Assembly (NCBI GenBank): GCA_003225315.1
Contig: QHZD01000045.1
Coordinates: 1-64,000 of the forward strand
DNA: 64,000 nt
Source of the DNA: Acidobacteriota bacterium
GTDB lineage: Bacteria; Acidobacteriota; Terriglobia; Acidiferrales; UBA7541
Direction: 5' to 3'
Below are positions 20,065 to 23,469 of this stretch, piece after piece. Below the pieces are notes generated by a model. It was not told where the DNA came from. It was given only the letters and a program-made list of their open reading frames with translations, and did no database searches. The translations under genes and the position numbers were made by a program. How positions within the stretch are numbered: the stretch's first letter is position 1; each line of letters begins with the position of its first letter.

Positions 20065-20340
20065 TTATTCTTCGTCGCCGTCGAGGCCGTCGACGGGCGT
20101 GATGGTGCCGAAGAGGCCGTCCTGTTCGCCGTTAATGCCAGCAGTGAAGAACAAAGTGTTCGCTGGCCCGGCGTTTGCGTCGTTGCCGAAGGTGAGAGAC
20201 CAAAGCCCATCGATGGTCAGGACGGAATCGTCGGGATTCTTCACGAAGCCGATGAATTTGTACGTGAAGCCGTTGAACGCGGCAATCTTGCCGCTGCCGA
20301 AATTGCCTACGAGAATGGCGTTTTTATTCCAGGATGCGAA
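20065..20340 (-). pseudogene. TIGR03118-family C-terminal remnant
   Basis: About 90 codons with no start codon: WNKNAILVGNFGSGKIAAFN, then IDGLWSLTFGN and TLFFTAGINGEQDGLFG, the characteristic end of TIGR03118 beta-propeller proteins (normally about 350-400 residues, exported). The upstream frame has no homology and is occupied by the truncated histidine kinase, whose stop (20324) lies inside this fragment. A deletion that removed the 3' part of the kinase and the 5' part of this gene explains the arrangement best. Confidence 0.75.
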
Positions 20341-21640
20341 CAGATGCCGAAGAAGGACTCTGAAACGGACTATCCGGGGAAGAGCTGCTCGCCGGTCCGC
20401 GCATACTGGAAACGGCTGACTGGGCAAGGCGGACCTGCTGCTGGATTTCGTAGGCGAGACGACGCTCCTGGGGCGAGAGAGAAGGATTGTCAGCAAGCAA
20501 TCCGGAGTAGCCGAAGATGGCGGTAAGAGGATTGTTGATCTCGTGAGCGGCGCCCGAGGATAGACGGCCAAGAGCCGCGAGCTTCTGCGAAAGCGCGATG
20601 CGTTCCTGGACTGTTTTCAAACTCTCGTAGGAGGATTCCGTAAGGGCAACCAGGCGCTGAAGCTCGCGTTCAAGAACGTAGAGCCTGAGGAAACCCAGCG
20701 CGCCGAGAAAAAACATAGCGCCAAGGATCAGACGCAGGCGGAATGTGATTACCACTCCGGGGTCGGAGTCTTCGAGATAACCGTATATCGCGAGCAATGG
20801 CAAGGAAACAATTGCGATCATGCCGAGGCGCGCGGTCCATAATCCCTGACGATCGGATTCTGCCGGGGCTGAGTCGGAAGAAGGCTGGAGATTCGAACCA
20901 ATGGCAAAAGCGTAGATGATCCAGAGGTCACCCAGGCTAAGGGGCACATCATAGATACTTCCTGAATAGTATTTGCCGGCGGCCAAGGCAAGGCCCTGAA
21001 TGAGATTTGCGAGCGCAAAGACCATGTTGCCCAGGCAAGCATGGCCGTAAAACCTGCGCCAGGGTCCTGTCGTCCTTCGCCAAAGCACAAGCAAAACGAG
21101 GACGACCGACGATTGCTCGGCCAGAACCAAGAAATAGTTGGCGCGATTATACGAAGCGAAATTGTTGACCACGGTGAGCCACGGCACGACAAAGTAGCAA
21201 TAGAGGCATAGCCACCACGAAAGCAAAAAGGCGAAATCAATACGCCGGAAACGCAGATCACTGGCGGCGGATTCCGAATGGGGACGAAAAGCAAGGGCCG
21301 CAAGCATGAGGGCGGGCACGAGGAAAAAGAAACCGTCACCAATTAGAGGATTGGGGGCCGATTTCTTAAGTAGGACTTCGGAGTAAGACCAATAGGAATA
21401 GGAAGAGAAAAGAAAGGTAAAAGCGGCGGTGTTCAGAAGCCAGAACATGCGCGCGGGGCCAGTGGAAGAGCGAGAATTTAGTCCGCAGAGAATGAGCAGG
21501 ACCCCGGTGAGGATCAGCGACGCGATGTCGCCTATGACGGTGGCGGCATAACTCTCCTTCAGAGCAAAGGCGGCCAGTGTCTGAGCGACAGTGGTTATGA
21601 TGGCCACTTTGAGGCAAATGGATTGTGTCCGCGCGAACAA
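20324..21640 (-). CDS. Membrane histidine kinase lacking the ATPase domain
   Basis: 438 residues. About eight hydrophobic segments span residues 10-330, then a helical linker and the DHp domain. The H-box is intact (LGRLSSGAAHEINNPLTAIF, His near 366) and the second DHp helix ends at AQSAVSSMR. Only 25 unrelated S/P-rich residues follow, so the HATPase domain is absent. The TTG start at 21640 is preceded by GGAGGA across the stop of the upstream kinase (2 bases apart), so the two are translationally coupled. It may be a decayed gene, or the acceptor half of a two-protein kinase. Confidence 0.85.
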   Translation of the reverse strand: MFARTQSICLKVAIITTVAQTLAAFALKESYAATVIGDIASLILTGVLLILCGLNSRSSTGPARMFWLLNTAAFTFLFSSYSYWSYSEVLLKKSAPNPLIGDGFFFLVPALMLAALAFRPHSESAASDLRFRRIDFAFLLSWWLCLYCYFVVPWLTVVNNFASYNRANYFLVLAEQSSVVLVLLVLWRRTTGPWRRFYGHACLGNMVFALANLIQGLALAAGKYYSGSIYDVPLSLGDLWIIYAFAIGSNLQPSSDSAPAESDRQGLWTARLGMIAIVSLPLLAIYGYLEDSDPGVVITFRLRLILGAMFFLGALGFLRLYVLERELQRLVALTESSYESLKTVQERIALSQKLAALGRLSSGAAHEINNPLTAIFGYSGLLADNPSLSPQERRLAYEIQQQVRLAQSAVSSMRGPASSSSPDSPFQSPSSASVRILE

Positions 21641-21642
21641 AG

Positions 21643-23469
21643 TTAGCTTTCCTCCGCGGGAGCAAGATTCGGCAGGCTGATGCGAGAGGCTCCTTCCCTC
21701 GCGCCGGGAAGGCTGATAGTAAAGACGGCGCCGCCCCCCACTCGATCACGGCAAGAAATATCGCCGCCGTGTTGGCGGACAATGCCGTAACAAGTGCTCA
21801 AGCCAAGGCCGACACCCTTGCCCACACCTTTGGTGGTGTAGAAAGGGTCGAAGACGTGTTCCGGCTCCAACAACCCGCCTCCACTGTCGGCGAATTCGAC
21901 CTCGACCTGCTGGTTCACCACGCGCAAGGTGATGACAAGAGAACCCGAACCCTTTTCTTCCACGGCATCGACGCCATTGCCGATGATCTGAAGAAATACC
22001 TGGAGAATGCGGCTGGAATCGGCCGCAACACTGGGAATCTCGCCTTCTGATTTGATTTCCAGTTGAACGCGAGGGTTTTGTCCCACCCGGGTCAAGCCGA
22101 CGGCAGCTGAGAGCAGCTGGCGCAGATCGACACTGGTAATTTCCAGCGGTGATTCGCAGGCGAAACTAAGCATGTTATTGAGCAGCGCGTCCGTGCGGTG
22201 GGCTTGGCTCACTAGTTTTTCCACCATCCCACGCGTGGGAGAGCCGACCGCGGCATCTCTTATCAAAGTCGTGGAAGAGTTGAGCGTGGCAGCCACGGCT
22301 TTCTTGACTATATTGGCGACGCGGGCCACAACCTGACCGAGCGAGGCGAGCTTTTCGACCTGGAGCATTCGTTGGCGCGTATTCGAGAGGCTGGCACAGG
22401 CAAGATTAGCCTCACGGAGCGAGCAAATCAGGTCGGAGCTCAAGAGGTCTTGTTTGAGAGAGAGGAGCGCTGTCAGAATCAGCATGGCGAGGAACGTAGC
22501 GAGAACACGGAAGCGTCCAATGTTGTCAGAGAGACCGGTGGAACCAAGCAAGGCAAACCCTATGAGAGGAGTGGAGAGCGTAGCCAGCATGGCGATGCGA
22601 GCCGGCAACAGAACCACGGCCCGCGAAGATTTGGAATGAACGCCGGTGAGCGGAGATGGAGCGGAACGCACGGGAAGATTGCCACCCAGAATTGCGAAGT
22701 AGGCGATTCCGGCGACGGAGGTCAATAGTGGGAGATCGTAGAGGCTTCCGGAATAGTACTTGCCCTCGTCGATGGCGACGTTGGCGATCATGGAGGACAG
22801 AGTGTAGAGAGCGAAAGACGCCCAATAGAGGCGATAGAGATTCCGCCACGCGCCTTGTGCTCGCAAGGCCACAATTCCGAGGACGGAAACGAAAATGATA
22901 TGCCCAAGGGTATCTATGGTATTGAAATGGAAACTATAAACACCATCCTCGTTCACAACGAACCTGTAGGGAATGACCCACATGGCATAGCAATAAAACC
23001 AGTAGACCAGCAGAAACGAAAAGTCTAGAAAACCAAGAATGCGAAAACGGCGTGTGAGCTGGGACTGAGGCTCAATGGCAAGCGCCGCAACGAGCGGCAC
23101 GAGCTTGAGGAAAAGCAAGGTGTCGCCAACAGGCGTCTGAGGCGCCGATACGCGGAGAACTATTTCATATTCCGTCCACTGGGCGACACCGAAGATCCAA
23201 AAGGCGATGCCCGCAGATGAAAACAACCAGAAAATGCGGGCGGCGCCGTGGCTCGCGAAAGCGTTTCGAACCATGAAGGTAGCCGCGACCAAAAGAAAAC
23301 CGAGTTCCGCCAAATCACCAAATGCAGAAAGGGCAAAACCCCGCTTGCCCCAATGCGCCACGCAAAAGGCGATCAACAGAACAATGGAAAATAAGATCGG
23401 GTAGAGGCGAGGCCAAGGAGCCATGCCTCGGCCGTCGATGCGCTGTTCAATTTTTTCTGATGATGGCAA
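21643..23469 (-). CDS. Membrane histidine kinase lacking the phospho-acceptor His
   Basis: 608 residues with about eight hydrophobic segments (20-340), the same plan as the next gene (both contain GKYYSGS-YD--L). At the H-box position it reads LGQVVARVANIVKKAVAAT (377-395) where HEINNPL is expected, so the His is gone. The ATPase domain is intact: N-box IIGNGVDAV (about 496-504), DSGGG, FDPFYTTK and GVGKGVGLGLS. It should bind ATP but cannot autophosphorylate on its own H-box. No response regulator is adjacent. Confidence 0.9.
   Translation of the reverse strand: MPSSEKIEQRIDGRGMAPWPRLYPILFSIVLLIAFCVAHWGKRGFALSAFGDLAELGFLLVAATFMVRNAFASHGAARIFWLFSSAGIAFWIFGVAQWTEYEIVLRVSAPQTPVGDTLLFLKLVPLVAALAIEPQSQLTRRFRILGFLDFSFLLVYWFYCYAMWVIPYRFVVNEDGVYSFHFNTIDTLGHIIFVSVLGIVALRAQGAWRNLYRLYWASFALYTLSSMIANVAIDEGKYYSGSLYDLPLLTSVAGIAYFAILGGNLPVRSAPSPLTGVHSKSSRAVVLLPARIAMLATLSTPLIGFALLGSTGLSDNIGRFRVLATFLAMLILTALLSLKQDLLSSDLICSLREANLACASLSNTRQRMLQVEKLASLGQVVARVANIVKKAVAATLNSSTTLIRDAAVGSPTRGMVEKLVSQAHRTDALLNNMLSFACESPLEITSVDLRQLLSAAVGLTRVGQNPRVQLEIKSEGEIPSVAADSSRILQVFLQIIGNGVDAVEEKGSGSLVITLRVVNQQVEVEFADSGGGLLEPEHVFDPFYTTKGVGKGVGLGLSTCYGIVRQHGGDISCRDRVGGGAVFTISLPGAREGASRISLPNLAPAEES

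Follow-up and report, generated by a model that had tools for sequence, protein, structure and literature searches.

Can two adjacent genes that each lack one half of a histidine kinase make up a single enzyme between them, or are they merely the remains of two? The question is raised by a locus in a 64,000-nucleotide stretch of DNA from an Acidobacteriota bacterium (the window: positions 1 to 64,000 of the forward strand of contig QHZD01000045.1, assembly GCA_003225315.1), in which two genes for membrane kinases, referred to here as UP (upstream) and DN (downstream), lie side by side on the minus strand. The window genome, G000, comprises 4.98 Mb and belongs to a genus designated g1; the locus is on its contig C33. 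We observed that UP has kept the ATPase (CA) domain and lost the phospho-acceptor histidine, that DN has kept the acceptor helices (DHp) and lost CA, and that the pair has been maintained by selection; losses of the same reciprocal kind were found in two further lineages. From these comparisons we consider it very probable that UP and DN together make up an obligate heterodimer, a split kinase whose UP subunit would phosphorylate DN in trans. A first-pass annotation of this DNA had put forward a split kinase, with two decaying duplicates as the alternative; our results support the former interpretation.

Anatomy of UP and DN

The features of the locus, with the evidence for each in brackets, are as follows.

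21643..23469, minus strand: UP, a membrane histidine kinase with CA present and the phospho-acceptor His absent (Pfam, orthologue motifs, ratio of nonsynonymous to synonymous substitution rates, dN/dS)
22312..22314, minus strand: AAT codon of Asn386, at the phospho-acceptor position of UP (sequence and alignment)
21703..22020, minus strand: CA/ATPase domain of UP, with the N, G1, F and G2 motifs intact (Pfam and motif reading)
21641..21655, minus strand: junction of the two genes, comprising GGAGG, the UP stop, a 2-base gap and the TTG start of DN (sequence)
20324..21640, minus strand: DN, a membrane protein with a signalling helix and a complete DHp (HisKA) hairpin, without CA (Pfam, orthologues, dN/dS)
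20543..20545, minus strand: CAC codon of His366, the acceptor His of DN within HExxNP (invariant across all 7 orthologues)
20399..20572, minus strand: HisKA/DHp domain of DN (Pfam and profile match)

UP is 608 residues long if read from a TTG start codon, which is not certain (there is an in-frame ATG at residue 16), and its residues 484-589 matched HATPase_c in Pfam (E 6.2e-18). HisKA was not detected in UP by Pfam up to E 1, and the H-box reads VARVANIVKKAVAAT. DN, 438 residues long from a similarly uncertain TTG, matched HisKA at residues 357-414 (E 8.8e-10), and HATPase_c was not detected in it by Pfam; its H-box is AAHEINNPLTAIF. Both DHp helices are present in DN, the window frame stops 24 residues past the second of them, and a profile of DN matched the DHp regions of ZraS (9jfj) and LvrB (8vc9). 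The complementary defects noted in the first-pass annotation, namely an intact ATPase domain without acceptor His in UP and a perfect H-box with both DHp helices and no ATPase domain in DN, were thus confirmed, as were the coordinates, strand and frames of the 2 genes and the 2-base gap between them. Only the two proteins jointly possess both domains of a HisKA-type (class I) kinase, and the CA domain and the acceptor His are on different polypeptides.

A multi-helix membrane region and a long signalling helix are common to UP and DN, in agreement with the shared architecture claimed earlier; no Pfam family matched the membrane region of either at E<1. Alignment of the window UP with seven DN proteins gave 25-27% identity. 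Among the 26 HisKA matches in the window genome, 23 share a frame with a HATPase_c match, as judged by coordinates, and the exceptions are DN and two short frames. The two lone matches, at G000:C9:4660-4839 and G000:C1:353985-354149 (the latter under the Pfam cut-off), are in frames of 229 and 261 residues, respectively.

Translational coupling of UP and DN is likely. One detail of the first-pass description had to be amended: the ribosome-binding site had been said to span the stop of UP, and GGAGG (21655-21651) sits within the last UP codons, just 5' of the stop. Across genomes, the spacing of the 2 genes ranges from 2 to 41 bases with the starts chosen, with a 4-base overlap in G021 and G030.

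Conservation of the pair and of its losses

A search with UP located UP and DN as adjacent, co-oriented genes in 7 of 36 genomes of the genus (G000, G001, G002, G021, G030, G022 and G025), and in these seven the locus never held two complete kinases or a single kinase. DN lacks CA in all seven and ends 15-24 residues beyond DHp helix 2, down to about 42% identity, with H, E (H+1), N (H+4) and P (H+5) present throughout. UP has kept the N, G1, F, K and G2 residues of CA in 7 of 7, and its acceptor position is occupied by His in two genomes (G022 and G025), by Asn in four and by Asp in one. E is retained at H+1 in 2 of 7, and there is no N or T at H+4 and no Pro at H+5 in any. The expectation that the pair would be conserved with both of its losses therefore stood for DN in every pair genome and for the His of UP in 5 of the 7.

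The general base E and the H+4 phosphatase residue take part in the reaction on the acceptor side, and response regulators dock at the segment from H to H+23. In that segment, identity among the three clades of the pair was 75% for DN (54 of 72 comparisons) vs 14% for UP (10 of 72). The preceding segment, H-20 to H-1, which is part of the dimer helix, gave 60% for DN and 58% for UP. Since E and the H+4 residue act on the acceptor side, the residues kept and lost suggest a complete acceptor in DN and no more than a donor in UP. The HE/DxxN/T motif is cited in PMC3591291.

Selection was estimated as dN/dS by the Nei-Gojobori method in four genome pairs, with synonymous sites near saturation for G021/G030. 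Whole-gene values were 0.12-0.16 for UP and 0.08-0.29 for DN, so that substitution in both genes is purifying and not neutral. The CA domain of UP gave 0.06-0.13 in four comparisons, the lowest value among the long domains of UP in 3 of the 4. For the signalling helix and DHp together, we obtained 0-0.14 in DN and, in UP, 0.13-0.14 in three pairs and 0.69, on three substitutions, in the closest pair. Of eight values for the C-terminal tails, seven were computable and three exceeded 1, and the tails are thus little constrained.

The surroundings of the pair, read by eye, are of three types: those of G000-G002, those of G021/G030 near formate dehydrogenase-like genes, and those of G022/G025 near a pirin-like gene. 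A DN profile was run against 89 family genomes, 95 genomes from the order and 399 sampled from the class, with only four candidates per genome scored in the last set; it detected no other DN that lacks CA. The remaining rows of these lists, part of which were read residue by residue, were open frames of at least 552 residues, with the exceptions of G073, truncated at a contig end, and G081, a broken frame of 452 residues.

Reciprocal loss in unlinked paralogues

In f11, another family of the class, the same kinase family is represented by two paralogues, X and Y, on different contigs. We searched 300 genomes drawn from a larger group, scoring four candidates per genome; 137 matched at E<=1e-70. 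All counts for the genera g51 and g95, here and below, are among the matches listed, which comprised at least 21 g51 and at least 19 g95 genomes, with both copies read in 20 and 18, respectively. CA was scored as lost if the N, the G1 D, the G1 G or either of two G2 Gs differed or was gapped, so that 'lost' covers anything from one change to ruin. We observed that in g95 X had an intact HExxNP and had lost the CA motifs in 18 of 18 genomes, and that Y in the same 18 had intact CA motifs with Ser or Gly in place of His. In g51, X had an intact H-box and lost CA, and Y an intact CA, in 20 of 20; the H+4 Asn/Thr was gone from Y in 19 and the His in 7 of the 20, at least one of the two being gone in each. 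Reciprocal loss in unlinked X and Y was thus found in 38 of 38 genomes. Genomes within a genus are not independent, and the 38 therefore stand for two lineages, in addition to the one in g1. One more g95 genome, G476, has an X with CA lost and a Y represented by a contig-end piece with CA intact and no H-box; in G577 (g51), neither X nor Y was matched at E<=1e-60.

Other genera provided 13 genomes (10 with two visible full-length kinases, and G426, G429 and G431), of which 10 had pairs with no loss in the parts read (the CA domain of Y in G431 runs into a contig end) and 3 were one-sided. Left out of these counts were G403 and the single copies, with H-box intact and CA frame broken, in each of G436, G465 and G470. 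In G403, two adjacent family members (L338; G403:C4:51000-56500) both have the His and the CA motifs, the first being frame-broken, and no reciprocal loss is seen. Wherever both members of a pair could be read, CA motifs are present in the counterpart of a CA-less DN or X (in G426, across a frame break).

The CA domain of the degenerate X is under relaxed constraint: it gave dN/dS of 0.31-0.55 in four comparisons, vs 0.07-0.15 for that of Y in those four genome pairs, the ratio of X to Y being 3.3-4.4. Values were 0.08-0.15 for CA of complete X (two comparisons) and 0.07-0.22 for DHp of degenerate X.

Also, in five loci read by eye (L062, L063, L064, L185 and L187), X is divergent from adjoining genes that resemble those for a DegS/NarX-type kinase and a NarL-type regulator, which could be the output route of X. 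A third f11 paralogue (L173, L175, L177) has the same membrane sensor and signalling helix joined to a GGDEF-like domain, without DHp-CA; the GGDEF (diguanylate cyclase) motif was read by eye in these three, and other matches confined to the membrane part are L180, L181 and L183.

Phylogeny and the number of losses

The main tree was built from 112 proteins with the H-box columns removed, and included 10 of the 20 g51 and 8 of the 18 g95 genomes. UP formed a clade (support 100/98) that grouped with the complete kinase L195 (100/99), and DN formed another (100/100). X was a clade (100/99) that includes complete members, within which X of g51 (100/100) stood apart from X of g95 (100/100), the latter joining complete X of g123 (97/87). 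Y of g95 was a clade (100/100), as was Y of g51 together with L153 (100/100); the placement of these two clades relative to each other among complete Y was poorly supported, so that the separateness of the g51 and g95 splits rests mainly on X. DN fell with X and the GGDEF paralogue (94/97), with an inner order of 11/0.

We considered whether the g1 pair might be orthologous to X and Y and rejected this: UP does not group with Y, and DN falls with both X and the GGDEF paralogue, their order within the group having a support of 11/0. A placement of DN next to X at 91/80 in a first tree of 60 rows was superseded by the 112-protein tree. As UP is not with Y, we read the g1 split as separate from the others, and the relationships are best read as reciprocal loss on at least three occasions, in g1 (linked genes), in g51 and in g95. 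The order of events is less clear within g1, where the UP tree joined G000-2 with G021/G030 (100/84) and the DN tree joined G021/G030 with G022/G025 (92/81); given this disagreement, the His of UP may have been lost once or repeatedly. Copies that have lost H+4 and kept His (12 of 17 in one read set, G583, and UP of G022 and G025) point to loss of the phosphatase residue ahead of the His as the usual order, with G511 as the exception.

Proposed mechanism and origin

In the mechanism that we propose, both subunits would have a multi-helix membrane sensor and a signalling/dimerisation helix in common and would pair through their DHp helices; ATP would be bound by CA of UP, and His366 of DN would be phosphorylated in trans. 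As DN alone appears to retain E as general base, the H+4 Asn for phosphatase activity and the response-regulator docking surface, the phosphate would be passed from DN to an unlinked response regulator, the existence of which we infer, and which DN would probably dephosphorylate. An ancestral homodimer would have had two CA domains and two acceptors, and one of each may suffice if phosphorylation occurs in trans. The pair may have originated by duplication of a complete kinase followed by reciprocal loss: of CA from DN, and of the phosphatase residue, the docking surface and then the His from UP.

Related systems

Split kinases are a kind already known, as in CheA3/CheA4 and FasBC. In the HK1-HK2-TcrA system of Mycobacterium tuberculosis (Rv0600c-Rv0601c-Rv0602c), the ATPase and His domains are on two proteins; these represent a single kinase divided into two next to its regulator, and not paralogues each with its own sensor. 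Ninfa (for NtrB) and Swanson (for CheA) are said to have demonstrated trans-phosphorylation in 1993 with engineered heterodimers of a His-less and a kinase-inactive subunit. Both studies are among the references of PMC5956149. Such intersubunit complementation involved laboratory mutants, whereas UP and DN are natural genes.

The nearest natural analogue of UP/DN is FasB/FasC of group A Streptococcus, in which, as described in PMC12675982, two sensor-kinase-like genes are in one operon, the proteins form a heterodimer by two-hybrid assay, and the kinase domain of one is proposed to phosphorylate the DHp His of the other. Unlike UP/DN, however, FasC has a dispensable kinase domain, FasB has candidate His residues, and the operon includes a response regulator (same source); the losses in UP/DN are fixed at the genome level, with no linked regulator seen by eye. 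As in UP/DN, the acceptor His and the ATPase are on separate polypeptides in CheA3/CheA4 of Rhodobacter sphaeroides, for which trans-phosphorylation is described (PMC3591291), and in Hik36/Hik43 of Synechocystis (PMC7656254). The split CheA proteins are CheA-type with a P1/HPt acceptor, whereas UP and DN are HisKA/DHp-type membrane proteins with the same sensor in both; Pfam up to E 1 matched HisKA and HATPase_c only, and not HPt/P1, P3 or the CheW-like P5. HK1 and HK2 are described as cooperating with TcrA (PMC9274095), and the set is listed in PMC8965865. In the literature searched, which covered few subscription papers, we found neither an acidobacterial split kinase among the titles listed (the searches returned FasBC, CheA splits, Hik36/43 and DivL instead) nor repeated reciprocal loss in membrane HisKA kinases.

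Alternative explanations

If UP and DN were two decaying histidine kinase duplicates with no joint function, it would be natural that a part essential for autonomous kinase activity is gone from each, and decay does occur nearby, where the next gene, of the TIGR03118 type, is truly broken by a deletion in the window genome. Yet purifying selection acts on the membrane, DHp and CA parts of the two proteins (the value of 0.69 for UP DHp in the closest pair being the product of three substitutions), DN is truncated just past DHp, with open frames, in all 7 genomes, and the losses are complementary in these 7 and in the 38 elsewhere. Decay is thus excluded as a general explanation of the 2 genes, a conclusion that disposes of the alternative left standing by the first-pass annotation, and we regard it as highly improbable for this pair. 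A different possibility is that UP is a pseudokinase regulator and DN a phosphotransfer protein charged elsewhere, the two perhaps in contact but with no phosphorylation of DN by UP. There is precedent for the former in DivL of Caulobacter, which, as described in PMC4211667, acts without kinase activity, has kept its CA boxes as UP has, and has Tyr in place of His; and DN, being DHp-only, is what would be expected of a Spo0B-like protein. DivL senses phosphorylated DivK through a conserved DHp patch (same source), however, and in UP this segment is the least conserved of DHp (0.14 between clades) and the neighbour is a CA-less DN. Moreover, the CA motifs of UP are invariant, its CA dN/dS is the lowest of the long domains in most comparisons, and a CA-less DN or X always has a CA-bearing partner where both were read, all of which make this explanation unlikely. 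Somewhat less likely still, in our view, is that UP and DN are separate homodimers with phosphorylation between dimers. CheA3 and CheA4 act through such transient contact (PMC3591291), and the dimerisation helix is conserved in both UP and DN; the common membrane sensor and coil, the close gene spacing and the common descent would rather favour a heterodimer.

Several observations weigh against an obligate split kinase. The His is still present in UP of G022 and G025. Among the matches listed, 13 of 20 Y copies of g51 have kept the His and lost only H+4 (one with a change of E to D also). X of G426 and G429 has lost its CA motifs while Y keeps both His and H+4, and in G430 it is Y that lacks H+4 and X that is complete; with one-sided cases in both directions, the association is strong and not absolute. 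His is replaced by Arg in 4 of 49 relatives (L040, L041, L153 and L158) with no homologous partner seen beside the gene. By eye, no receiver-type gene was recognised among the frames listed next to the pair, in the window or in six relatives; the neighbours were not scanned with Pfam. AlphaFold single-chain models (pLDDT, the predicted local distance difference test, of 57 and 60) were too poor for use. Finally, a strictly cis geometry of CA would render the proposed reaction between UP and DN impossible.

Other relatives, flanking sequence and assembly quality

The 49 relatives just cited are what remained of 50 distinct rows outside the pair loci after one contig-end row was dropped; 40 are complete, 4 are His-less and 5 have CA motifs that are not intact (4 X-type rows, plus L051, gapped at G1). 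An initial supposition that only UP and DN are odd in the family is therefore untrue, as both His-less relatives and a degenerate CA of X were found. L040 (G046) and L041 (G045) are near contig ends, and these two and L158 (G048) are otherwise complete single kinases; His loss with no partner seen beside the gene means that such loss alone is no proof of a split. L153 (G053:C206) is a Y-type kinase near that of G511, which is of the other family, in an f1 assembly, and may reflect contamination or recent transfer.

The sequence at 20065-20322 (minus strand), adjoining the DN stop, is a C-terminal TIGR03118 remnant that corresponds to profile positions 260-335 of 336. A near relative, G001 (L024), has about 1.05 kb extra past the DN stop, with a 424-residue frame that ends in the same C-terminus. 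We considered whether the deletion might have shortened DN itself; the comparison with G001 places its start immediately beyond the DN stop, so that DN is untouched, and CA-less DN recurs in the other pair genomes, so this was ruled out. It should be noted that most assemblies are drafts, with some gene copies frame-broken or cut by contig ends. The key residues of UP and DN are identical in the separate assemblies G001 and G002, which makes sequencing error unlikely for these residues, and chance was dismissed.

Implications for the kinase family

A broader reading, to which we incline with some reserve, is that homodimers of this kinase family have become obligate heterodimers on three or more separate occasions, each time through the same reciprocal loss, giving donor and acceptor subunits with sensors of their own. 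The members would then form a graded series, from two complete paralogues through one-sided loss and reciprocal loss to deletion of CA with adjacent genes. The complete X/Y pairs, which occur in another family of the class and are mostly unlinked, look like the pre-split state. Such a phylogenetic series indicates how a split may arise and recur. If each subunit does have its own sensor, the pair could serve as a coincidence detector. Two ideas are made testable by these genes: that evolution can turn sensor kinases into obligate heterodimers combining two inputs, and that separation of kinase from phosphatase gives the switch-like behaviour predicted for split kinases. For kinases without His or without ATPase, these observations supply an actual, conserved partner whose loss is the mirror image, and for annotation the rule would be to seek the reciprocal partner before such a kinase is called dead.

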